A stretch of 64,000 bases of DNA, taken from NCBI RefSeq assembly GCF_003234175.2, contig NZ_CP126257.1, positions 1,984,001 to 2,048,000 on the forward strand. The letters are read 5' to 3'. Shown here in pieces: positions 4,270 to 30,482 of this stretch. The stretch comes from Curtobacterium sp. MCSS17_007. Lineage in GTDB: Bacteria > Actinomycetota > Actinomycetes > Actinomycetales > Microbacteriaceae. How positions within the stretch are numbered: the first letter of the stretch is position 1; each line of letters starts with the position of its first letter. A program made the translations under genes and the position numbers. The notes beneath the pieces are model-generated. The model saw nothing but the letters and a program-made list of their open reading frames with translations. It was not told the origin of the DNA and searched no databases.

Positions 4270-5156
4270 CAGAACCGCTGTCCGATCCCGAACATGCGCG
4301 GCTGATCGCCGAAGTCATAACTCACCCCCTCCGTGGTGGAGAGCGAGTTCCCGTCCGTGTCGGTCAGGGATGCGCCCTGGTTGGCGTACAGCTGCACTGA
4401 GGCGCGCGCTTCGTCGACGAGCTTCTGGTACTTCGAGCCGTAGGCGTTGAGCAGAAGGAAGGCTGCTGCAAGCTTCTCGGTCAGAACGCGCACCGCGTCG
4501 GGCACCGGCTTGAAGGGCGTCTCGTAGTAGTTCGCCAGGGCGGCGTTAATCTCTGCCTGCGCGGCTCGACGCTGCTGGTCCACGGCGGTGTCGCTCAGGT
4601 TGGTCGAGTTGGTGAAGCCCGCCTCGGCCCGGATGTCTCCGAGCGACGCGTAGCGCGCATAGTCATCCCCGCGGACGGCGGCAGACAGATCGAGCGGCGT
4701 CTCTTCGTCAGTGAGCTCGTTCCAGTTCGTGAGCAGGTACCAGTAGCCGGCACCCCCGCTTGGATCGGCGTAATAGGTGTCGGGCCGGTCCGCCTGGATC
4801 GCCCGGCTGGCCAGAGGGCTGAACGCCTCGATCAACGGCACCCTGCCGTCGACGTTGACTGCTCTGCGGATGCGCACCCGGTCGCCGAGCACGGCCGTGA
4901 CGGGCTCAAAGCGCTTGTGTGCGCGTTCCAATGGCGCGGCCAGGTTCAGGGTCGTTTCATCGGCAACGGCCTCAACTACGGCCTTCTCGCAGCCGTCCAG
5001 GCCCGGTTCGCCCAAGTAGATCGACTGACCGGCAATGAAACCGGCCGTATCAGCCACGCTGACGGCGGAAGCCCCCTCCGCCGCGTCGAGAGCAAGCTCC
5101 GACCGTTCGGTGACGTTCTCGTTCCTGAATGACTTGACGAAGAGGGGTACTGGCAT
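4269..5156 (-). CDS. Head-tail connector protein, DUF1320/Mu gp36-like C-terminal domain
   Basis: This 295-residue protein appears to have two parts. Residues ~1-90 carry a beta-rich repeat-like domain (TERSELALDAAEGASAVSV). The C-terminal ~150 residues begin YASLGDIRAEAGF and hold DQQRRAAQAEINAALANYYE, which resembles gp36/gp6-type adaptor proteins joining portal to tail. I use the ATG at 5156, preceded by AAGGAAA; an in-frame start nine codons upstream (5183) is possible. It is the first gene of the tail module, separated from the head genes by two opposite-strand genes, so it probably has its own promoter; a weak CATATT lies just upstream. Confidence 0.65.
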   Translation of the reverse strand: MPVPLFVKSFRNENVTERSELALDAAEGASAVSVADTAGFIAGQSIYLGEPGLDGCEKAVVEAVADETTLNLAAPLERAHKRFEPVTAVLGDRVRIRRAVNVDGRVPLIEAFSPLASRAIQADRPDTYYADPSGGAGYWYLLTNWNELTDEETPLDLSAAVRGDDYARYASLGDIRAEAGFTNSTNLSDTAVDQQRRAAQAEINAALANYYETPFKPVPDAVRVLTEKLAAAFLLLNAYGSKYQKLVDEARASVQLYANQGASLTDTDGNSLSTTEGVSYDFGDQPRMFGIGQRF

Positions 5157-20082: not shown

Positions 20083-20787
20083 TCAACCGAAGAACAAGCC
20101 CGTAAACTCGGGAAGCGTGCACGCGTAAAAAAGGTCCTTCACTTCATCCCTGCCCCGCTCGATGATCGTGCGCAGCTCACGGGCGCGCTGCTCGTCCGGC
20201 GCGATGAACACCACGCGCGGAAAGAACGTCATGCTCCCCTGCTCGTACGCATGTGCGTATCGCTTGAGCTTGTCCTTGATCGCGTCCTGGCGTTCGGTCC
20301 CCCGGTCGGCTTCGATCCAGAGTTCGACGTTCCGCCGCTTCACGTGGTCGCCGGCATCAACGTAGTAGTCGGGCCTCAGTTCGGCACCGGCCACTACCCT
20401 GTGCGTGTGGGGTTCTGTGTCGTAGCGGTCGATCGTGATGCGGCCCGCCTGTTCCGCCCGGACCAATTCCACGTGCACGTCGGCAATGGCGAGCGTATGC
20501 AGGTTCACCGAACGATAAGGCCAATACTTGCCCGGACGTCCTGAGAGCGCGTGTCCGGCGCTTCCGAGCTGATAGACGTACTGACCGCTGCCCGAGCCGT
20601 TTCCGCCCACTGGACGGCGTTCTACGAGCTTCACGTAGTTGTGATCGATGAGCCGGTGCATGGTCCGCCACTGCGGAGTAGGGCTCTTCACGTCCGCGAA
20701 ATGCATGGCCGCTATGTGTTCGGAAGCAAGCTGTCCGAAGCGTGCAATAGACAGCACGATGAGGCGGTCACGGTCGAGGATGATCAT
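20083..20787 (-). CDS. Replication-relaxation family protein, candidate phage regulator
   Basis: A 234-residue protein with an N-terminal winged-helix region (MIILDRDRLIVLSIARFGQL...) and a C-terminal part containing RPDYYVDAGDHVKRRNVELW and EADRGTER, the pattern of the replication-relaxation (PF13814-like) family found on actinobacterial plasmids and phages. The ATG at 20787 is directly preceded by TTGACA-17-CATAGT and seven bases, so it is expressed from a strong promoter without a leader. Position beside the divergent early operon makes it a candidate immunity or replication regulator; this is inferred. Confidence 0.7.
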   Translation of the reverse strand: MIILDRDRLIVLSIARFGQLASEHIAAMHFADVKSPTPQWRTMHRLIDHNYVKLVERRPVGGNGSGSGQYVYQLGSAGHALSGRPGKYWPYRSVNLHTLAIADVHVELVRAEQAGRITIDRYDTEPHTHRVVAGAELRPDYYVDAGDHVKRRNVELWIEADRGTERQDAIKDKLKRYAHAYEQGSMTFFPRVVFIAPDEQRARELRTIIERGRDEVKDLFYACTLPEFTGLFFG

Positions 20788-21245
20788 GGGGATCACTATG
20801 AGGGAGCCAAGTACGCGTGTCAACGGCCGCCCGATCCCCGCGCCAGCGCGGATGCGCCGTGGCCCGAAGTCCACAACAGGTCCACGTCCATCTCCACACC
20901 CAGAGGCCGTCATGATTTATCCACAGCAAAACGACTTGTTTGCGACATAAAAGCGTTGACTATTGAACGACCATAGTCCACACTATTGCACAGACGAAAG
21001 CGGAACGCCGATAGCAAGTTCGACAGCCTGTAGTCACCGCATATTTAACAACCAGGTCATGCAGCGGCAAGGGCGCACGACGCACTGGACCGTCAGTCCT
21101 TCGGCCCGCTGAAAGTGAAACGCGCCTAAGTACCGCGTGTCTCTGCGTCTCAGTCCCTTCCGCCTACCGCATGTGTCAGAAGGGACGCCCTTGCGACTGC
21201 ATGACTACATATCAAAAAGGGGGAAACGAAAGGCTCAAACACCGA
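20788..21245. promoter_or_regulatory. Divergent control region of the early operon
   Basis: Leftward promoter TTGACA (20823-20818), 17 bases, CATAGT (20800-20795) for the replication-relaxation gene. Rightward, TTGACTATT at about 20954 with CACACT 17 bases downstream is a plausible early promoter and repeats the TTGACTATT word of the promoters at 18,095 and 20,067. A GTCCCTT/AAGGGAC hairpin lies near 21,160-21,190. No confident gene is present; a possible upstream extension of the 21,246 gene begins at 21,201. Confidence 0.6.
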
Positions 21246-21545
21246 ATGAATCGAGAACACCAGTGGAACCTGCCACCCAAAGTGAAGGGCTCCACGCTCA
21301 AGAAACTCCACCACAAGCTCGACCCGTCTTTCATAGAAGCCCTCGACGGCCTCTCGAAGCGGGAAAGCGAGCGTACCGGCCGCAAGGTATCGAGAGGAAC
21401 CATCCTCACCGACCTCAGCACCAAGGACTCAGCGTTCCACCGCCAGAAGCGCGCCGAACTGCGACGTCTGTACACACAACTTAAAAAGGAACTCACCACC
21501 GATGCAAGCACTCACAACAACCCGAAGGAACAAGAACGAACGTAG
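21246..21545 (+). CDS. Uncharacterised early protein (99 aa)
   Basis: A basic, helical protein (MNREHQWNLPPKVKGSTLKK...) at the head of the rightward early operon. The central segment GRKVSRGTILTDL resembles the helix start of RHH-type proteins but is too weak to call. Starts at 21201 or 21171 are possible in the same frame. No known family. Confidence 0.55.
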   Translation: MNREHQWNLPPKVKGSTLKKLHHKLDPSFIEALDGLSKRESERTGRKVSRGTILTDLSTKDSAFHRQKRAELRRLYTQLKKELTTDASTHNNPKEQERT

Positions 21546-21690
21546 TCGAGCCACGGAAGCCCGCCTGGACCGCCGCATGGCCGCCTCAGCGCCCCGCTAC
21601 CAGCCACGACGACGATCGTTCGGCAAGTCACCCCAGCACTCACTAGCACGCTCTCTGAGCAAGGCCCTCGTATGGACGACGATTCAGTAG
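21502..21690 (+). CDS. Possible small basic protein (62 aa)
   Basis: Overlaps the previous gene by 44 bases and the ERF gene by 19. AAAAAGGA lies about 13 bases upstream of the ATG. The product is rich in Arg and Ser (TRRNKNERSRATEARLDRR...). It fills an otherwise empty gap between two genes, but there is no family support. Confidence 0.35.
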   Translation: MQALTTTRRNKNERSRATEARLDRRMAASAPRYQPRRRSFGKSPQHSLARSLSKALVWTTIQ

Positions 21691-22577
21691 GCAAGAAGAC
21701 GCCGGAGTACCTGGTACCGCCGGTCATCGCCAAAGCGCTGATCAGCATCCAGTCGGAACTCAAGGCTCTTACCAAGAGCGCTGCGAACGACGCCTACGGA
21801 AGCAACTACGTGCCGCTCGACGTGGTGACAGAGAAGGCGCACGAGCTGCTGTCCGCCAGGAAGATCGCGGTGATGCAGCCGATGATCACCGACGAACACG
21901 GCCACGCAGCCCTCGAAACGATCCTCGTCCACGAGAGCGGCAAGAGCTTCATCAGGACCACCAAGCTCGCCATACGGGAGATCGATCCTCAGAAGCACGG
22001 CTCTGCCGTCACCTACACGCGCAGGTACGCCTTGATGGCCATGATCGGCATCACGGCGAAAGAAGAGGATGACGACGGCAACAAGGCTGCGGGTGCCATC
22101 GCGCCGGTGACCGAGGAACAGAAGGGCCAGATCGAGACGCTTCTGAAGCACCTCAAGTGGCCGAGGAAGAACATCGCGGCCGAGGTCTTCAAGCTCAAGT
22201 CCCGGGACTCCGCCGCACTGGCGATCATCAACTTCGAGAAGATCGTCGCCGAGAAGATGCGCGACGTCGAGTCGGTGAAGAACGCCACGGCGATCGAAGT
22301 CACCGAGGACCCCGACACGCTGCCGATAGACGACAGCACGCCGGTCGGAACGCTCGGAGCCCGGCTCAAGGCGCTCAAGCTGGCGAGCCCGTCCTACGAG
22401 AACAAGGTGGTCAAGTCGGCCACCGGCAAGCCGTTCATGGCGAACGTGAAGACGCCGGAGGACTTCAAGAAGCTTGACGAGTACCTGGCAGCGCTCGAGA
22501 AGGGCACCTACCACCTGCCAGCAGAGTTCTACGCGCCGTCGGACGAAGAGATCATCGTCGACGAGCCGGTCGCGTAG
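21672..22577 (+). CDS. ERF-family single-strand annealing protein
   Basis: A 301-residue recombination protein. The N-terminal ~150 residues fit the ERF family: ALISIQSELKALTKSA, YVPLDVVTEKAHELL, and GSAVTYTRRYALMAMIGITA, the last being the most conserved part of the family. ERF proteins anneal complementary DNA strands during phage recombination and circularisation. The C-terminal half is variable and charged, ending in a degraded acidic tail (PSDEEIIVDEPVA). First large gene of the early operon. Confidence 0.88.
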   Translation: MDDDSVGKKTPEYLVPPVIAKALISIQSELKALTKSAANDAYGSNYVPLDVVTEKAHELLSARKIAVMQPMITDEHGHAALETILVHESGKSFIRTTKLAIREIDPQKHGSAVTYTRRYALMAMIGITAKEEDDDGNKAAGAIAPVTEEQKGQIETLLKHLKWPRKNIAAEVFKLKSRDSAALAIINFEKIVAEKMRDVESVKNATAIEVTEDPDTLPIDDSTPVGTLGARLKALKLASPSYENKVVKSATGKPFMANVKTPEDFKKLDEYLAALEKGTYHLPAEFYAPSDEEIIVDEPVA

Positions 22578-22627
22578 GACCGCACACACAACTGAATAAC
22601 GGGCCGAGGCCCAGGAGAACAATCCAC

Positions 22628-23140
22628 ATGAGCAAGCCGCTACAACAGCGCACGTTCAACAACATCAATCGCTACATCAAGCAGGTTGTGAAGGAAGGCT
22701 TGTACAAAGCCGAGAAGGTCGCCGAAGTTACTGGCGTCAGCGTGTCCACCGTCCGGGCCATCAAGCGCCTCAAGACGTGGAAGGCGTACCAGGCATACCT
22801 CTTGGCCCGACACACGAGCCGCAAGACGACGCCGGCCGAACAGACGCTGATCAACGACCTCAAGGAGGTTCAAGAGAACCCCGCCGAGCACGAGTACGTC
22901 ACTCTGAAACAGTTCAATGATGCGGTTGCCAAACTGTCCGGTGACGTCAGCAACGCAAAGTCCGTCGCGAACATCGCCAACGGCAAAGCGGACGCAGCCG
23001 TCAAGAAGAGCGAGCAAGCCTTCAGCGCGGCCGACGACGCATCTACCCGCGAACATCAGAACAGCGGCATCCTCTGCACGATCATGCAGCGCAAACCGGG
23101 ATGGTTCCGCCGCGTGCAAGTCGAGACGTCCGACCGCTGA
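22628..23140 (+). CDS. HTH protein with coiled-coil C-terminal half
   Basis: A 170-residue protein with CAGGAGAAC eight bases before its ATG. Residues ~20-50 (GLYKAEKVAEVTGVSVSTV) are a helix-turn-helix. The C-terminal half is Ala/Lys/Asp-rich with heptad-like spacing (VANIANGKADAAVKKSEQAF), a probable coiled coil. It could be a transcription regulator or replication accessory protein. Its stop overlaps the start of the next gene. Confidence 0.65.
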   Translation: MSKPLQQRTFNNINRYIKQVVKEGLYKAEKVAEVTGVSVSTVRAIKRLKTWKAYQAYLLARHTSRKTTPAEQTLINDLKEVQENPAEHEYVTLKQFNDAVAKLSGDVSNAKSVANIANGKADAAVKKSEQAFSAADDASTREHQNSGILCTIMQRKPGWFRRVQVETSDR

Positions 23141-23415
23141 TGAAACAGCTCGGTTTGCTCGAAGGCTCGAACATCTTCGGAGACGAGGTGCCGGAGAAGC
23201 AGCCGGACCCGTATCGGACCGCTGATGGCGAGATACGGGCGCTCCCCTCCAAAGCGATCCTCTGGTACGTGAAAGAGCACGGCCTGACACTATGGGCGAC
23301 CGGAGCGTGGCCCACGATCTACTTCGTCACCGAAGATGATCAGCAGCAGGGCGTGACGATTGGAGAGATCGTCGAGGACTACCAGGCGCGGGACCACAAG
23401 AACAACCGCGCCTAG
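23140..23415 (+). CDS. Uncharacterised early protein (91 aa)
   Basis: The ATG at 23140 overlaps the previous stop (TGATGA), so the start is set by coupling. The product (MKQLGLLEGSNIFGDEVPEK...) has an acidic N-terminus and a beta-rich middle (GLTLWATGAWPTIYFVTEDD). No family recognised. Confidence 0.6.
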   Translation: MKQLGLLEGSNIFGDEVPEKQPDPYRTADGEIRALPSKAILWYVKEHGLTLWATGAWPTIYFVTEDDQQQGVTIGEIVEDYQARDHKNNRA

Positions 23416-23418
23416 CAC

Positions 23419-23769
23419 CTACCTATCGCTCGCCACCGAACAGTGGCGGCACACGAACACCAGGACGTCAAGGGACGGGTCGCCGTTGAGTGCGTGAATG
23501 AAGCCGGGTTCCATCCTGCGCTTCAGACACAGCGAGCAGTAGTACTGATCCAGCCCTCTCGACTCCATGTACGCGACGACACGGCTCCTGACAGTGTCCG
23601 GCATACGGATCGCCTGCCTGGTCGGCCGACGGCCCACGCGCTGCGCAATGAGGCGCTGCAGCTGACGCTGGGTAATCGACAGCGAGAGCTCTTCCTTGAT
23701 CCACGCGGCACTCATGCCCTTGGTCTGGGACAGGTAAAGGATCTCGTCGATGTCGTAGTCGCGCGCCAT
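23419..23769 (-). CDS. HTH plus zinc-ribbon protein on the opposite strand
   Basis: A 116-residue protein, convergent with the early operon. The N-terminal ~50 residues look like a helix-turn-helix (DEILYLSQTKGMSAAWIKEE). The C-terminal half has C78-x2-C81 and C107-x2-C110, a four-cysteine zinc ribbon. A possible phage transcription regulator. No clear ribosome binding site precedes the ATG at 23769, and an adjacent small gene is divergent from it. Confidence 0.65.
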   Translation of the reverse strand: MARDYDIDEILYLSQTKGMSAAWIKEELSLSITQRQLQRLIAQRVGRRPTRQAIRMPDTVRSRVVAYMESRGLDQYYCSLCLKRRMEPGFIHALNGDPSLDVLVFVCRHCSVASDR

Positions 23770-23799
23770 TAATACTTACATTTAATCACAGGAGGTCAT

Positions 23800-23961
23800 A
23801 TGACCCTAGTTATCGGACTACTCTTATCAGTCTTCCTCGACATCACCGCGCAATGGGTTTTGATGCTGACGCACTCGCAGTTCTCAGTGCCGGTCGCGCT
23901 CGTCGTGGGAACACTCAGCGGTCTCGCTGGCATGTCAATCGTCGTCGCGGCGACGAGGTAG
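23800..23961 (+). CDS. Small two-helix membrane protein (53 aa)
   Basis: A perfect ribosome binding site AGGAGGT (23790-23796) precedes the ATG at 23800. The product has two hydrophobic segments (TLVIGLLLSVFLDITAQWVL and VALVVGTLSGLAGMSIVVA) with few charges. Below common length cut-offs, so easily missed. It may be a holin-like or host-modifying peptide, but position in the early region argues against a simple holin; function unknown. Confidence 0.7.
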   Translation: MTLVIGLLLSVFLDITAQWVLMLTHSQFSVPVALVVGTLSGLAGMSIVVAATR

Positions 23962-24284
23962 CACATGTCGCAATAGCGTCGGATCGTCAAATGTATATTT
24001 CCCGACGTTAGCAACAGGGGTGACGCGGCGTAGTTCTGCGAGGACACATTTTGTCGGCCTGTCAATTAGCCGAAACGAACGACAGAACGAACGAAATGTG
24101 TCATAGCTACGCCGCCAGCCCACCATGTGACGGACTTGTCAAAACCTTACCCGACTCGCACTTCTCCACAGGCTCATGCAACGAATCGTTCGGCGCGGCA
24201 ATAACATTCAACCGTTAGTGCTGTACAACGCGCCGGACGATCCGGTCCAGGAGCGGACCATATAACTAAACAGGAGAATCATGA
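23962..24284. other. Non-coding gap with nested inverted repeats
   Basis: No confident gene. Holds the nested inverted repeats described separately (24025-24115). A 29-codon reading frame (ATG 24177 to TAA 24266) is possible but unsupported. The ArdC-like gene's ribosome binding site AGGAG lies at the right end. Confidence 0.5.
24025..24115. repeat. Nested inverted repeats, long imperfect hairpin
   Basis: Outer arms GCGGCGTAG (24025-24033) / CTACGCCGC (24107-24115); middle arms GACACATTT (24043-24051) / AAATGTGTC (24094-24102); inner TCGGC (24054-24058) / GCCGA (24069-24073), followed by repeats of GAACGA. Three collinear nested stems in 91 bases are unlikely by chance. It may be an RNA element upstream of the ArdC-like gene, or a DNA site such as a replication origin. 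Confidence 0.6.
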
Positions 24285-25076
24285 ATGAGCGAACAACTTG
24301 CCGAAGGCCGGCATCTTGACCTGAAGCAGAAACCCAACTGGGGCGTACTGCTCGAAGAAGCGCTCGAAGCTCCCGGGCAGCTGAGCGACACGTACAACCG
24401 CTTTTACCCGTACAGCTTCCTGAATCAGATCGCGCTTCGCATGCAGGGAGCGACCGAGCCCGTGGCCACCTACAAGAAGTGGCTTGAGATGCAGCGCCAG
24501 GTGCAGCGCGGGGAAAAGGCGCTAGCCATCCTCCGCCCGATCGTCGTCAACAAGGAAGACGAGTTCGGCTTCCAGGAACGCAAGGTGCGCGGATTCAAGT
24601 GGGTCAGGTGCCTGTTCCAGTACTCGCAGACCGAGGGCGAAGAGCTTCCGCCCTACCGACCGGCCGAGTGGAGCCGTGAGCGCGCGCTGGCCAACCTGGC
24701 GATCAAGGAAGTCGCCTTCACCGAACTGAACGGAAACATCCAGGGCTACGCGAACGAGAACGACGAGCTGGCGATCAACCCGGCAGCGCGCTGGCCGCTC
24801 AAGACCACGATGCACGAACTCGGTCACCTGGTGCTCAAGCACCCGAAGTGGAGCGAGGAAGAGTACCAGCAGCACAGGGGCATAGCGGAGTTCCAGGCGG
24901 AAGCGACCGCCTACCTGACGATGAACGAAATCGGGGCACGGGATCAGATGAACCCTGCCGAGAGCCGCGCCTACATCCAAAACTGGTTGAAGACGACTAC
25001 GAAGCCCGACGAAGGGCAGATGCGCTCCGTGTTCACCGCTACGGACAAGATCCTGAAAGCGGGGCGCGATGAGTGA
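24285..25076 (+). CDS. ArdC-like antirestriction protein (ssDNA-binding plus metallopeptidase)
   Basis: A 263-residue protein. The N-terminal ~125 residues fit the ArdC N-terminal domain (YPYSFLNQIALRMQGATEP, TYKKWLEMQRQVQRGEKA), which binds single-stranded DNA. The C-terminal part has the zinc-peptidase motif HELGH (177-181) and downstream E202/E206 in GIAEFQAEATAY. ArdC-family proteins protect incoming DNA from restriction. AGGAG lies about nine bases before the ATG. Placed in the early operon, it could act right after infection. Confidence 0.8.
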   Translation: MSEQLAEGRHLDLKQKPNWGVLLEEALEAPGQLSDTYNRFYPYSFLNQIALRMQGATEPVATYKKWLEMQRQVQRGEKALAILRPIVVNKEDEFGFQERKVRGFKWVRCLFQYSQTEGEELPPYRPAEWSRERALANLAIKEVAFTELNGNIQGYANENDELAINPAARWPLKTTMHELGHLVLKHPKWSEEEYQQHRGIAEFQAEATAYLTMNEIGARDQMNPAESRAYIQNWLKTTTKPDEGQMRSVFTATDKILKAGRDE

Positions 25077-25278
25077 GCAGGAGCCAATTGCACCGAATTC
25101 GAGGGAATTAGAACCTGACGTCACGTCGATGACCGAAGCCGAGCTGATCGAACTCGGGACCACTCTGCCGTCAGCCGTCACCGCACTGGGCGAACGGGCA
25201 ATGGACGAGTATTTCAAGCGACGAGGAGAGGTGATCAACAGGGCGATGGAAGAACGGAGGAATGGCGAGCATGACTGA
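25069..25278 (+). CDS. Small acidic protein (69 aa)
   Basis: ATG overlaps the end of the ArdC-like gene by eight bases, indicating coupling. The product (MSEQEPIAPNSRELEPDVTS...) is acidic with a helical second half (GERAMDEYFKRRGEVINRAM). No recognised family. Part of a run of three short overlapping genes. Confidence 0.6.
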   Translation: MSEQEPIAPNSRELEPDVTSMTEAELIELGTTLPSAVTALGERAMDEYFKRRGEVINRAMEERRNGEHD

Positions 25279-25471
25279 CGAGATTGATGAGATCGTGTAC
25301 AGATGCTTTGTACAGGGACAGTACTGGGGAACGGCAAGTGGCATCGGTGACGAAGAGAATAAGTTGAATCCCGACTACGAGCCCGACGAACCAATAGACC
25401 GCACGCAAGCGGTCGAAGCGATCGTGGCGATCTTCGAGCAATACAAGGACGATCAAGAGGGTACGGAATGA
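25271..25471 (+). CDS. Small acidic protein (66 aa)
   Basis: I chose ATG 25271 because GGAGG (25256-25260) is 10 bases upstream; the ATG at 25262 would be only one base from it. The product (MTDEIDEIVYRCFVQGQYWG...) ends in an acidic helix. Overlaps both neighbours by a few bases. Function unknown. Confidence 0.55.
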   Translation: MTDEIDEIVYRCFVQGQYWGTASGIGDEENKLNPDYEPDEPIDRTQAVEAIVAIFEQYKDDQEGTE

Positions 25472-25821
25472 GCCTACCCACCCCTACCCACTCGGACCTT
25501 CCTCCGATGGAAGACCCTATCGAAGACATCATCATCTTCGTGAAGAAGTGGCTCAACAAAATCCGATTGTCGTTCCTCAATGAAGATGAGATAATCGGCC
25601 CAGGAGAGCCTATGGTGATCCGCACCGATTACGGGACGCTCAGGATGCAGTTCCTGCCGCTCGAATCGGAACCCGACTTGAACAAGCTGGCGAGGCAGTA
25701 TCGCGCTGAAGCGGCACTACGGGCTGCAGAGCGTTCCCGCCGTCAAGTCATAAGGGCAACTCAGCAGCTGTGGGCCGTGCTGGCCGCCAACAGGCGGTTG
25801 AAAAGCCCACGTAACCGGTAA
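25468..25821 (+). CDS. Uncharacterised early protein (117 aa)
   Basis: Coupled to the previous gene by a four-base overlap (ATGA). The N-terminus is acidic and Pro-rich, the middle has a short beta region (MVIRTDYGTLRMQFLPLE), and the C-terminus is basic and helical (RAAERSRRQVIRATQQLW), suggestive of nucleic acid contact. No family recognised. Last gene before the structured non-coding region. Confidence 0.6.
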   Translation: MSLPTPTHSDLPPMEDPIEDIIIFVKKWLNKIRLSFLNEDEIIGPGEPMVIRTDYGTLRMQFLPLESEPDLNKLARQYRAEAALRAAERSRRQVIRATQQLWAVLAANRRLKSPRNR

Positions 25822-26171
25822 GCGTCCGCCGAGGACGTACGTCGCGACAAGCGGCCGGTTCGCACCTTTTCAGGATCGGTTCGACAGTCAAGCCGCGACG
25901 AGTGGCTGATATTGAGGAAAGCTAGGCGAAACGTTACGCCGATGAGGGCGGGTGCGGAGACGGCCCGCAAGGGGTTTCCACGGCTCCTATATGCCTCCGC
26001 GGTGCAGGGTTCTGAAAAGCCCCTGCCTCTCGCGGCTTTGACTGCCGGACTGATGCCGATCGCCCGATCACCGCCCGTTTACTGGTGGTGCTCTGAACCG
26101 CAGTGACCGGGCGTTCGGCGCGCACGAGCTTTTCCACCTGCTCGTGCGCCCGTCATAGGAGAACCGAACGA
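25822..26171 (+). ncRNA. Multi-branched structured RNA candidate
   Basis: This gap between early genes folds convincingly. GATCGG (25874-25879) pairs with CCGATC (26056-26061), and CAGTCAAGCCGCGA (25885-25898) with TCGCGGCTTTGACTG (26030-26044, one bulged base). Enclosed local stems: GGCG/CGCC (25925-25940), GCGGG/CCCGC (25948-25968), AGGGG/CTCCT (about 25970-25987), and GCAGGG/CCCTGC (26004-26026). Two further hairpins follow: 26072-26113 (12 of 13 pairs) and a perfect 10-bp stem GCGCACGAGC/GCTCGTGCGC (26120-26149). U-G pairs in two stems favour the plus strand. It matches no RNA family I know. Confidence 0.55.
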
Positions 26172-26534
26172 ATGGAACGAAAATCATCCCGTCACCCTGA
26201 GAAGAAGCCCGACGAGGCGCTTCTGCTGCTGGGCGACATCTACGGCGACCAGCCGGACCACGTGCTCGAAGAGCACGTCAAACACCTGTCGGAAGAAGAC
26301 CGGCAAGTTGAACTGGAACTCAAGTACCTCGAACTGGAACAGGTGGCACGGGGCCCGATGGCCTACGTCCCGACCGACGAGTTCGAGATGATGCGAGCCG
26401 TCTGGGAAGACGACACCGACGAGCAGATCGCGGAACGCATCAGCTACCTGCGCGACCGTCACCTGACCGTGCTCGGCCACTACGCGGTGATCCGCGCGGT
26501 GAAGACCATGCGCTCAAAGGACGACGAGTCATGA
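26172..26534 (+). CDS. Uncharacterised early protein (120 aa)
   Basis: An acidic helical protein (MERKSSRHPEKKPDEALLLL...). The ATG at 26172 follows AGGAGAACC about 10 bases upstream, itself just after a 10-bp hairpin, so its translation could be affected by the upstream structure. Stop overlaps the start of the nuclease gene (ATGA). No family recognised. Confidence 0.6.
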   Translation: MERKSSRHPEKKPDEALLLLGDIYGDQPDHVLEEHVKHLSEEDRQVELELKYLELEQVARGPMAYVPTDEFEMMRAVWEDDTDEQIAERISYLRDRHLTVLGHYAVIRAVKTMRSKDDES

Positions 26535-27082
26535 GCGAGAGCAGCGAGAAGGGCAAGAGCCTGGAGAACTACATAGCGAAGACGCTTCAGAAGAAGCTCG
26601 GCGCCCGCGTGAAGCGCGATGGCAAGTCCGGCGCGGGCAGCCATCAGAAGATGGACATCAGCGACTACTTCCGGGACACGCCGTTCGACATCGAAGCGAA
26701 GAACCACAAGACGATCAAGCTCGGCGAGTTTTGGGGACAGACGGTCGCCGGAGCGAGCATGGGGCGCGTTCCCCTGCTGGTCGTGCAGCTCAAGGACGAG
26801 CCGCTGGCCGTGCTGAGGTTCGACGACCTGGTGAACATCGTCGCGGAACTGAAAGAGGCCAACGAGACGATCGCGGATCTGCGCCGGCCGATGAGTCACG
26901 ACATCCCACGCACGCGCGAGGAAGTGTTGGAACAGATCGAGACGGTGTTCGCGCCCGCCAAGAAGGACGACGACACCAAGACGTGCCGCAACGGCCACAT
27001 GATCGCGCCGGGCCAGACGCGTTGCCTGGCGAAGGGCTGCCAATACTCGTTCGGGTACAAGGCCAAGAAGATCAAGAAGTAG
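26531..27082 (+). CDS. PD-(D/E)XK nuclease (Holliday-junction-resolvase-like) with zinc ribbon
   Basis: A 183-residue protein. Residues ~25-60 show the PD-(D/E)XK core: VKRDGKSGAGSHQKMDISDY with D42, then FDIEAKNHK with E55 and K57. The C-terminus has C152, H155, C165 and C170 spaced as a small zinc-binding ribbon. Such nucleases resolve branched DNA during phage recombination, fitting the ERF protein in the same operon. The zinc ribbon fused at the end is less usual. Coupled to the preceding gene by overlap. Confidence 0.75.
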   Translation: MSESSEKGKSLENYIAKTLQKKLGARVKRDGKSGAGSHQKMDISDYFRDTPFDIEAKNHKTIKLGEFWGQTVAGASMGRVPLLVVQLKDEPLAVLRFDDLVNIVAELKEANETIADLRRPMSHDIPRTREEVLEQIETVFAPAKKDDDTKTCRNGHMIAPGQTRCLAKGCQYSFGYKAKKIKK

Positions 27083-27150
27083 GTCACGGGCCTACTGCTG
27101 CGCCCGGACTTCGGACGCGGCTCAAGCCCATGATCCGAAGAGGTGCCACC

Positions 27151-27636
27151 ATGCCGCAAGGCATCCTGATCCCCGTAGAAGAAGCCGAACCGCTCCGCGT
27201 GGTCGAGCTCAAGAAGGTGTCCGACTACCAGGCCGCGATCGGAGGGTGGGTCGAAGTCGTCGACTTGGACTCCCCCGAAGCGTCGATCTGGTTCGACGAG
27301 GAAGGCAAGCTCAAGAACCTGCCGCTCAACCGCCGCGCGTCCCTGATCCTGTGGATGCACAACCCGGCGTTCCGCGACCGGGACGTAGTGAAGGGACCGG
27401 CCATCGTGCTCGGCCCCGGCAACGAAGACGGAGAGACGCAGGACGTGCCTCCGGAACTCAAGATGCTGCTCACGGTCAGGGAGACGCTGCGCGTCGAAGT
27501 GCAGACGGCCGACAACGGCGAAGCCTGGAACATCAACCAGCGCCGGTTCCCCGACTGGGTGGACGCGTACAACTTCGCGCTCGCCCTCTCCGACCGCTGG
27601 ATGGCGGTCGAACGGGTGCGAGTGGTGCCCGAGTGA
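27151..27636 (+). CDS. DUF3846-like protein
   Basis: A 161-residue protein starting MPQGILIPVEEAEPLRVVEL. The N-terminal pattern ILIP...LRVVELKKVSDYQAAIGGWVE matches the DUF3846 family, common in actinophages and plasmids but without a known function. AGAGG is seven bases before the ATG at 27151; an upstream ATG at 27130 is less likely. Last gene of the early operon, followed by a terminator. Confidence 0.7.
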   Translation: MPQGILIPVEEAEPLRVVELKKVSDYQAAIGGWVEVVDLDSPEASIWFDEEGKLKNLPLNRRASLILWMHNPAFRDRDVVKGPAIVLGPGNEDGETQDVPPELKMLLTVRETLRVEVQTADNGEAWNINQRRFPDWVDAYNFALALSDRWMAVERVRVVPE

Positions 27637-27645
27637 TCATGGAAG

Positions 27646-27670
27646 ACCCGTCGCGTCAGCGGCGGGTTTT
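27646..27670 (+). terminator. Intrinsic terminator of the early operon
   Basis: ACCCGTCGC-GTCA-GCGGCGGGT followed by TTT: nine base pairs with one U-G pair and a four-base loop, ten bases after the stop codon. Confidence 0.85.
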
Positions 27671-27686
27671 CACGTCCAATTGAAGA

Positions 27687-27729
27687 GCCCCCTGTCCGCG
27701 AGATCGGTAACCTCAAGCGGACAGGGGGC
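27687..27729. terminator. 13-bp hairpin between convergent transcription units
   Basis: GCCCCCTGTCCGC (27687-27699) pairs perfectly with GCGGACAGGGGGC (27717-27729). Together with the preceding terminator it isolates the early operon from the leftward gene ending at 27751. Confidence 0.75.
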
Positions 27730-27750
27730 GGGCGGGTGATCAGGACCGGA

Positions 27751-28065
27751 TCAGTCCTGCTGGCTGGGACGAAAACCCTTGCGTCGTCCCCGGAGGCCGT
27801 CGGCGTTCTTGAGAACGTCGTTGATCTTCGGGGAGAGCTTGTTGAACTCTTCCAGGGTGACGACGATCTGCTGGGTGTCCCCATTGCGGATCTCGAGAGC
27901 GACGAGGTTCCCCGCGTCCTTGAGGCCGGAGACCTCTTCGGGCAGGGCGTCGAACTGAACGGGCTCGTCCAGCTGCGGGTGGCGTCGGACGACGACCGTG
28001 ACGAACTTCTCGTCGGCGTCTTCCTTGCCTGACAGGTCCGACACGCGGACCGACCGGTAGGCCAT
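27751..28065 (-). CDS. Conserved small phage protein (104 aa)
   Basis: Begins MAYRSVRVSDLSGKEDADEK and continues with a beta-rich acidic/basic body (FVTVVVRRHPQLDEPVQFDA). The N-terminal pattern recurs, to my recollection, in small actinobacterial phage and plasmid proteins of unknown function. GAAGGGAAAG lies upstream of the ATG. It is divergent from the 44-residue gene, with an AT-rich control region between them. Confidence 0.65.
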   Translation of the reverse strand: MAYRSVRVSDLSGKEDADEKFVTVVVRRHPQLDEPVQFDALPEEVSGLKDAGNLVALEIRNGDTQQIVVTLEEFNKLSPKINDVLKNADGLRGRRKGFRPSQQD

Positions 28066-29166: not shown

Positions 29167-29215
29167 CCCCTCTCAGAGGGGTATCGTTCGTGCTTCGTCC
29201 AGATTCTTTGACTCG
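29167..29215. other. Prophage right attachment junction (attR) inside comM
   Basis: Normal ComM coding reads to ...VLFLDE (GAG at 29212-29214) and then changes to unrelated residues and a stop at 29173, so the crossover lies close to 29,205-29,216. A perfect palindrome CCCCTC-TCA-GAGGGG (29167-29181) lies just inside the phage. The common core cannot be defined without attL. Confidence 0.75.
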
Positions 29216-30132
29216 TCGAGGAACAGCACACCGCGCGTCGCCCGCGACACCGCACCGGGGCGCACGGTGCCGGAGCCGCCCCCGATGAGCGACACGGCGG
29301 ACGCAGAGTGGTGGGGTGCCTCCCACGGTGGCCTCGTCGTCCACGAGGCCACGCCGTGCCCGGCGACCGACCGGACCGCCGCGACCTCGAGGGCGGCTTC
29401 CTCGTCGAGGTCCGGCAGCAGCCCGGGCAGGCGCTCGGCGAGCATCGTCTTGCCCGCACCCGGCGGCCCCACGAGCAGCGCGTGGTGCCCACCCGCGGCG
29501 GCAGCGACCACCGCGCGGACCCCCACCGGGTTGCCGATGACCTCCGCGAGCTCGGCGGCAGGTGACCGCTCGGGCAGGACCGGTGGGGCGGTGACCGGCT
29601 CGACGTCGACCGGGGGCAGCAGCGCGCCGGCGTCGATGGCGGCCGCCCGGAGCGAGTCGACCGCGCGGACCTCGACACCGTGCACGAACCGCGCCTCGTC
29701 GGCGTTGCCAGCGGGCAGGACGACCCGGTCGACACCGGCGTCGCGGGCAGCGAGCAGCATCGGGACGACACCGGGCACCGGCCGGAGCCGCCCGTCGAGC
29801 CCGAGCTCACCGATGTAGACGACGCGCTCGCTCACGCGCGGTGCGACGTCCGCCCCGGCGAGCACCGCCATGGCGATGGCGAGGTCGAACCCCGACCCTC
29901 GCTTCGGGATCGCGGCCGGGGTCAGGTTCACCGTGATCCGTCGCGCGGGCAGCGGAGCCCCGGCGTTCGCGGCAGCGGCACGGACGCGTTCCCGGGCCTC
30001 CCCCAGCGACGTGTCCGGCAGTCCGATGATGCTGAACGCCGGCAGCTGGCTCGTCAGGTGTGCCTCGACCTCGATCCGTCGGCCGGTGACGCCGAGGAGC
30101 GCGACCGCGGCCGACCGGCCGATCCCGGTCAC
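29173..30132 (-). pseudogene. comM: comM (YifB, Mg-chelatase-like AAA+ helicase), split by the prophage
   Basis: The 319-codon remnant starts at GTG 30132, overlapping the yraN stop (GTGA). It has the N-terminal ribosomal-S5-like domain and the AAA+ Walker A GPPGAGKT (residues 222-229), and reaches the Walker B region GVLFLDE (301-307), after which 12 phage-encoded residues and a stop follow. Full-length ComM is about 500 residues, so Walker B onward and the C-terminal domain are lost; the rest should lie left of the window. ComM promotes branch migration during natural transformation, so the lysogen should lack this function. Confidence 0.9.
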
Positions 30133-30482
30133 AGGATCCCCTCGAGGTGCTCGACCCCGACCCGGTCGCCGTCGACGTGCACCGCGACGGCATCGAGCCG
30201 GATCGCCGCTGCGTGCACTCCCGGGTGCGCCGCGAACCACATCGGGACGAGCTGGCGCAGCCGCGCGGTCTTCGCCGGCGTGATCGCCTCGAACGGGTGA
30301 CCGGTCGACACCCCCGCCCTCGTCTTCACCTCGATGAACACGAGCGTCGGGCCGTGCCACGCGACGACGTCGATCTCTCCGCGCGCACACCGCCAGTTGC
30401 GTTCCACCAATCGGTACCCGTGATCGGTGAGCCATTCCACCGCGTGGTCCTCGCCGTACCCGCCGAGTGTTCGTCGTTCCAT
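30129..30482 (-). CDS. yraN: YraN/UPF0102 family nuclease-like protein
   Basis: A 117-residue protein starting MERRTLGGYGEDHAVEWLTD with GGAGG eight bases upstream. It has the endonuclease-like core of UPF0102: ARGEIDVVAWHGPTLVFIEV with D, E and K (EVKTR) of a PD-(D/E)XK fold. Its cellular role is unclear. It precedes comM, with dprA expected next, the usual order rnhB-yraN-comM-dprA of many bacteria. The reading frame is open further upstream, but the ATG at 30482 fits the family. Confidence 0.85.
   Translation of the reverse strand: MERRTLGGYGEDHAVEWLTDHGYRLVERNWRCARGEIDVVAWHGPTLVFIEVKTRAGVSTGHPFEAITPAKTARLRQLVPMWFAAHPGVHAAAIRLDAVAVHVDGDRVGVEHLEGIL

Follow-up and report, generated by a model that had tools for sequence, protein, structure and literature searches.

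Between gene C and gene D of the window (the whole 64,000-nucleotide stretch of DNA analyzed here) lies a 350-nucleotide gap, set amid tightly packed genes that all run on the same strand. What does this gap hold, and is it related to any described RNA? The initial annotation read it as a multi-branched structured RNA of no known family. Our results support this reading: positions 25813-26150, within a prophage gene cluster, encode a structured RNA that is conserved, lies on the plus strand and has no family in Rfam (Table 1).

The locus and its prophage

Over positions 20172-28065 the window is a perfect match to a segment of IMG/VR contig 2867191002, and we therefore regard this region as a predicted prophage. 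Together with the Erf, ArdC-like and PDDEXK neighbors, this identity places the RNA in a phage or prophage, a trait of the GOLLD and ROOL RNAs. The label "early operon" given to the cluster in the initial annotation is a putative one that rests on the neighboring genes (Erf-type recombinase, ArdC-like, PDDEXK/resolvase). Gene D, directly downstream, returned only its own prophage in an IMG/VR scan, and tblastn found no relatives of it in INPHARED or in the RNA loci of related phages.

Table 1. Features of the RNA locus, given as positions in the window
Feature	Positions	Strand	Evidence or remark
Erf-type recombinase gene	21672-22577	+	Upstream of the ArdC-like gene
ArdC-like protein gene	24285-25076	+	Upstream of gene C, small genes between
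Gene C, 117-aa protein	25468-25821	+	Stop codon inside the first RNA domain
Domain I, three-way junction H0/H1/H2	25813-25860	+	Hand comparison of 7 phages
H0	25813-25818 with 25855-25860	+	Varies with compensation
H1 (GCGUC/GACGU)	25822-25826 with 25834-25838	+	Invariant
H2	25841-25845 with 25851-25855	+	Varies with compensation
Gap with structured RNA	25822-26171	+	Between gene C and the 120-aa gene
Linker motif CGCACCUUUUCAG	25861-25873	+	Counterpart of GYACCUUUACA in L008 and the long RNAs
Core RNA closed by P1 (25885-25902 with 26027-26044)	25874-26061	+	P1 homology from hand alignment
P2 hairpin, D-arm-like position	25903-25924	+	Double changes in 2 of 5 pairs
P3 hairpin inside CUAGGYRA(N8-10)GCCGAUGAGKGYG motif	25925-25940	+	RNAalifold; pattern scan
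P4, bearing hairpins P4a (25948-25968) and P4b (25970-25988)	25944-25997	+	Hand alignment, RNAalifold, counts
P5 hairpin, flush with P1, T-arm-like position	26004-26026	+	Hand alignment
3' hairpin region, two alternative pairings	26062-26113	+	Single-sequence fold of the window
Perfect 10-bp hairpin GCGCACGAGC..GCUCGUGCGC	26120-26149	+	Pairing check; similar hairpin in six long-RNA contigs
Gene D, 120 aa	26172-26534	+	Downstream neighbor of the RNA
PDDEXK_15 / resolvase-like gene	26531-27082	+	Served as bait for relatives
Gene F, DUF3846	27151-27636	+	Second bait for relatives

Folding of the region

The gap (25822-26171) folded at -171.8 kcal/mol. Its 100 dinucleotide shuffles averaged -141.8 kcal/mol (sd 6.1), which gives z -4.9, and none was as low in energy. 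The minus strand also lay below all of its shuffles (z -3.2), so folding energy only leans toward the plus strand.

The named helices of the initial annotation all exist in the sequence, and two of them are present in the minimum-energy fold: the long-range helix 25885-25898/26030-26044, with 14 pairs and one bulge, and the hairpin 26120-26149, with 10 of 10 pairs. The other two compete with alternative pairings. The helix 25874-25879/26056-26061 can form all six of its pairs, but the single-sequence fold pairs 25875-25879 with 26050-26054; likewise, the hairpin 26072-26113 can form 12 of 13 pairs, whereas the single-sequence fold makes a different, longer hairpin at 26062-26112. The gap is structured as claimed, but the RNA begins earlier, at 25813, and overlaps the last codons of gene C. 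The window forms all 38 pairs of the core described below, 34 of them also in its minimum-energy fold. The exception is P3, which has a pair probability of 0.19 in the single-sequence fold and shows no double change in the structure-free alignment. As a separate observation, GGUGG (26084-26088) could pair with CCACC (26134-26138), a putative kissing interaction between the loops of the two 3' hairpins.

Searches for relatives

Direct DNA searches failed, and relatives were instead reached via the PDDEXK gene and gene F. The window RNA gave no match among INPHARED phages, only two short fragments among plasmids, and nothing beyond itself and a 27-base fragment in 59 relatives. A long RNA of the family (L014) was similarly without match in phages or plasmids and gave short fragments in three of 396 genomes of the order. 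With the PDDEXK gene, tblastn found two Methanoculleus viruses in INPHARED, and one relative of this gene was present in Arthrobacter sp. AL12 (L047). The gene F search yielded 94 relatives, 80 of which were kept; within the order, relatives of gene F occurred in 13 of 396 genomes, counting the window's own, and some of these, such as G544 and G596, have multiple copies. We selected 26 contigs to make up the phage group; one of them supplied two loci, giving 27 in all. Longer stretches from seven of the other 12 gene-F genomes held no match to the core (best 10.7 bits) and no strict domain-I string, with only loose or already-seen GUUGCCCG-like strings. A domain-I-like string in one of the short gene-F loci (L149) and a GUUGCCCG-like string at one place (L159/L161/L163) were taken as chance.

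A five-armed core with compensatory changes

A five-armed core (window 25895-26033) is common to six phage contigs from four lineages: the window prophage, L132, L008, L060, L052 and L053. All six carry the motif listed for P3 in Table 1, and all align by hand to one fold composed of P1, P2, P3, P4 (with P4a and P4b) and P5. Our main count uses four of the six rows, L060 and L053 being left out as near-duplicates; across these four lineages, 141 of 148 pair cells were standard and 18 of 38 pairs showed double changes (all six rows: 94.5 % paired, 18 double-change pairs). Shuffled alignments (2000) reached at most 13 double-change pairs, and slid versions 1-3. Two outer pairs of P2 are broken in L008 and L060 in this alignment. 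The initial annotation had favored the plus strand, and the pair types favor it too, with 14 G.U pairs against 2 A.C pairs (and 5 other mismatches).

The hand alignment was fitted to the structure, with the window's bulged C, the bulged U of L052 and two outer L132 bases left out of the columns. We therefore added a check in which the central 82-84 nucleotides were aligned with MAFFT, without structure and with segment ends chosen by the analyst. RNAalifold recovered P3, P4, P4a and P4b from this alignment; in 4 of these 17 pairs both partners had changed. The share of paired cells was 93.5 %, compared with 35.6-46.7 % for slid versions, and the covariation score was 0.263 against a shuffled mean of 0.098, a value reached by none of 500 shuffles. 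By count, double changes occurred in 4 of 18 pairs (shuffled mean 1.9; 18 of 500 shuffles reach 4). When MAFFT is given the whole core, P1, P2 and P5 end up out of place, and these helices thus rest on the hand alignment.

The covariation test called for initially therefore came out in favor of a structured RNA: compensatory changes occur across lineages, in the long-range stem P1 by hand alignment and in the inner stems also without structure guidance. No coding signal was seen: over the region the three frames contain 1, 5 and 3 stops in the window, and in four homologues each frame has between 3 and 10.

The core appears to be restricted to this phage group. The pattern CTAGGYRAN{6,12}GCCGATGAGNGYG, run against the 2.9 million contigs of IMG/VR, returned seven matching contigs: the six core contigs, which belong to this phage group and have the RNA at the same position, and L131, where the match lies inside an ORF. 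A covariance model of the central stretch scored 82-89 bits on the six core contigs; its best score elsewhere, across 28 sources, was 17.9, and it had no match in the long RNAs described below. Only the window's own copy was found in 396 genomes of the order (core pattern) and in 296 genomes of the class (core model, stricter filters), and the core covariance model had a single match in the 3.3-Mb genome that carries the window.

A mosaic family of short and long RNAs

Nineteen of the 26 phage-group contigs carry one of two 5' domains: 8 have domain I (the window prophage, L024, L051, L052, L053, L060, L070 and L132) and 12 have a domain running from GUUGCCCG to GGCAAC, with L053 having both. 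Neither was present in the other seven (L006, L021, L054, L055, L056, L059 and L061), a minus-strand match in L061 being counted as chance. A further 68 loci, 648 kb scanned on both strands and for these two domains only, contained neither.

Neither domain I nor the GUUGCCCG domain could be aligned with MAFFT, and no double-change pair emerged there from RNAalifold. We therefore compared domain I by hand in seven phages (the window and six others), where every listed pair of the three-way junction was standard. Base 25855 of the window is claimed by both H0 and H2. Folded singly, six of the seven formed the junction and L052 folded differently; an unguided alignment showed H1 only, without H0 or H2. 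In L132 the linker motif is present and the junction is degenerate. The GUUGCCCG domain was folded singly for eight contigs, which have an outer 6-bp helix in common.

Several members of the group have far longer RNAs. L006 contains about 1015 nucleotides of non-coding, highly paired sequence (-431 kcal/mol), sub-stretches of which had z scores of -3.7 to -6.2 (as L065). A shorter non-coding stretch, of 372 nucleotides, lies in L005 (z -5.5). Extreme folding was also found for the gaps of L057 (the L008 contig; z -8.9), L067 (-8.6), L055 (-7.9), L060 (-6.8) and L052 (-5.3), while the gaps of L047 (z +2.6), L036 (the same as L017; -0.6), L054 and L061 (both about 0) did not fold better than shuffles. 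By blastn, L006 and L021 (there as L009), which lack both 5' domains, match the long RNAs in other segments. The pattern GCYGAGNYGYACCTTTACA, which is absent from the window, hit seven IMG/VR contigs, all of them carrying RNAs of the family (six with long RNAs, and the L008 contig). In the closing helix of the long RNAs, L015 differs from the others with compensation (UUCAUGCAGUUAAAUGG/CCAUUUAACCGCAUGAA against UUGUGCAGUUACAUGG/CCAUGUAACUGCACAA).

A hairpin of the form GCGCAYGARC..GYUCGUGCGC, like that at 26120-26149 of the window, occurs in L019, L020, L021, L022, L023 and L025. The window RNA and the long RNAs are linked indirectly, by several weak ties rather than one strong one: the presence of both 5' domains in L053, the linker motif, the 3' hairpin and the upstream protein. 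The window RNA appears to be a short form within a mosaic family ranging from roughly 250 to 1000 nucleotides. Two minor observations concern the long RNAs. L023 has two identical copies, at 4626 and 7375, which may be a real duplication or an assembly artifact, and T-arm-like hairpins (GUUCRANUC-type loops) appear to recur within the large RNAs of L014, L022 and L052.

A conserved protein gene upstream of the RNA

Of the 19 phages with a 5' domain, five of which are closely related among themselves, 18 have a plus-strand frame of 38 codons or more whose end lies no further than 25 nucleotides from the RNA start (stop at -23 to +25), compared with 6.1 for random points; L017 is the exception. 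Nine of the upstream proteins are homologous, namely those of the eight domain-I phages and that of L005 from the GUUGCCCG cluster. Homologues of gene C lie directly upstream of the RNA in all seven other domain-I phages (phmmer or tblastn). Searching 32 frames with phmmer from the window, L132 or L051 linked L024, L060, L053, L070, L051, L052 and L005 (E 7e-21 to 5e-5), and tblastn with gene C alone found L130, L024, L132 and L134 (E 3e-7 to 5e-17). The remaining upstream proteins of the GUUGCCCG cluster are alike by eye only, with a short hydrophobic stretch followed by a basic one.

At E 0.01 gene C had no match in Pfam or PHROG, and tblastn found none in INPHARED. A protein search, which requires shared 5-residue words, returned the window's own sequence and one other. 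AlphaFold2 predicted a basic 41-residue C-terminal helix (residues 71-111) with block pLDDT mostly 93-97 and a pTM of only 0.35. The gene downstream of the RNA varies, being gene D in the window and gene F (DUF3846) in L052 and L053.

Comparison with known RNAs

As the initial annotation proposed, the RNA belongs to no known family at this level of search: no Rfam model matched the window at its gathering score, and a permissive search of 25700-26250 gave five chance-level matches (E 1.9-4.6) to three miRNAs, the Streptomyces RNA Scr6925 and a snoRNA. Among relatives, ten loci had no match at gathering, seven loci (five of them additional) had none at E ≤ 2, and L060 had none at E ≤ 1. Matches below gathering in the relatives were miRNA-type apart from one lncRNA (best mir-8229, E 0.003, in L006), and these look like chance matches. 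Group I and group II intron models from Rfam had no match in the window. ARAGORN found no tRNA in the 64-kb window, in L005, in L006 or in seven of eight further loci, and made an incomplete call in L013; tRNA searches at low threshold gave only noise. Among the titles and abstract openings returned by searches of the open PMC literature, and in Rfam 15, there was no description of this RNA, and PMC11109978 has no occurrence of the word "phage."

The layout of the core resembles a class II tRNA cloverleaf, most clearly in L052. The likeness lies in the five-way layout and, by eye, in a T-loop-like hairpin (UUCGACU) flush with a 7-bp stem in L052; the T-arm-like P5 is, again by eye, flush with P1 in the window, L132 and L052/L053, with a linker of 3-4 nucleotides in L008 and L060. 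Unlike a tRNA, the core has a stem that runs into a long helix and has no regular anticodon arm. The Rfam tRNA model and ARAGORN were negative, so we did not accept a tRNA identity for the core and treat the likeness as resemblance only.

According to PMC12286853, GOLLD is a large, multi-domain phage or prophage RNA with a variable 5' region, often near tRNA islands and of unknown task; ROOL is a large prophage RNA, likewise frequent near tRNA genes, also of unknown task and with no protein partner identified; and OLE is a large RNA with the protein partners OapA and OapC. The window family is similar to GOLLD in being large, multi-domain and phage-borne with a variable 5' region, and to ROOL in being a large prophage RNA. 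It is similar to OLE as a large RNA with a protein partner, which for the window RNA is a candidate only. None of the three is matched through Rfam. The window RNA further differs from GOLLD in its length (about 340 nucleotides), in its place behind a conserved small protein gene and in the lack of tRNA genes in the 64-kb window, and from ROOL in having no tRNA island and a putative protein partner. A further mark of GOLLD and ROOL is an RNA-only multimeric cage. With no model match and no tRNA neighborhood, we consider it a variant among large structured phage RNAs, for which GOLLD, ROOL and OLE are closest in kind.

Possible function and alternative explanations

The explanation we prefer, at about even odds, is that the RNA acts in trans with the upstream-encoded protein, comparable to GOLLD, ROOL or OLE. 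The RNA would be transcribed together with the gene cluster and would then be cut out or stably retained. The upstream-encoded protein may bind it, as gene order and the helix prediction (pTM 0.35) suggest, and the resulting RNA-protein particle could act in trans, by analogy with GOLLD, ROOL or OLE RNAs, which are viewed as working in the form of large particles. The shared core fold with double changes, the domain-wise mosaicism and the fixed place behind a small protein gene are observed features of the family. The upstream protein gene stays constant, whereas different genes follow the RNA in different phages and the RNA itself is enlarged by whole domains; this favors a role in trans over one in cis, and the size of the L006 region (1015 nt) suits a trans-acting RNA. 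Weighing against this explanation are the hand alignment behind P1, P2 and P5, the indirect ties between the window core and the long RNAs, the gaps of L017 and L047 with their unremarkable folding scores, and the seven contigs that have neither 5' domain. More tentatively, and with some doubt, we propose an undescribed phage RNA-protein system of actinobacterial prophages, in which exchangeable RNA domains and a small protein with a basic helix would form a particle; with equal reserve, its RNA parts would be domain I or the GUUGCCCG domain, the tRNA-like five-way core, and further domains up to about 1 kb.

The RNA might instead work in cis within the operon, as a long structured spacer controlling how the genes on either side, above all gene C, are processed, stabilized, antiterminated or translated. 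Its position in the gene cluster and its overlap with the end of gene C suit such an element too, as do the upstream stop lying within 25 nucleotides of the RNA start in 18 of 19 phages, the close spacing of the same-strand genes around it and the lack of a T-run 3' of the hairpin 26120-26149. Nevertheless, we think this less likely: the downstream genes differ among relatives, and whole domains vary while the position stays. To our knowledge, antitermination or attenuation elements need less than the 350-1000 nucleotides with five-way junctions seen here.

Improbable, in our judgment, is a DNA-level element such as a replication origin or a packaging or recombination site, with the hairpins acting in DNA. 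The prophage also encodes a Replic_Relax-type protein and recombination genes, and the GCGCACGAGC palindrome is similar in sequence in six long-RNA contigs, yet the excess of G.U over A.C pairs and double changes that preserve pairing rather than sequence argue against it. That the RNA is a diverged example of a class already described, be it a self-splicing intron, ribozyme, riboswitch, tRNA or tmRNA, is quite improbable: the class II tRNA-like order of P1, P2, P3, branched P4 and P5 and the UUCGACU loop of P5 in L052 point that way, but the Rfam and ARAGORN results given above do not, and the RNA is flanked by complete reading frames with no interrupted gene seen. Chance folding of GC-rich spacer DNA, or plain GC content, is very unlikely as the cause despite the GC of 0.64 and the well-folding minus strand, given the double changes in homologues of four lineages and the confinement of the motif to this phage group.

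The family bears on a wider matter, since only a few large, ornate RNAs are known from phages and none has an assigned task. A family that extends from about 250 nucleotides to about 1 kb by added domains, with compensatory changes and a candidate protein partner encoded next to it, offers a tractable member for work on function: the 340-nucleotide RNA of a single-copy prophage should be simple to delete, probe and complement.

Other observations at the locus

A strong hairpin region (24172-24290; z -7.4 for a 120-nucleotide window) lies directly 5' of the ArdC-like gene and is followed by the leader TAACTAAACAGGAGAATCATG; similar gene leaders occur in L008 (3767) and L015 (790). Near the prophage edge, a Mg-chelatase-like gene on the minus strand (29173-30435), which we take to be ComM-like, is shortened (Pfam ChlI and half of Mg_chelatase). 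A similar gene in L005 adjoins a serine recombinase, and the cut-short gene together with this counterpart probably marks the integration site.
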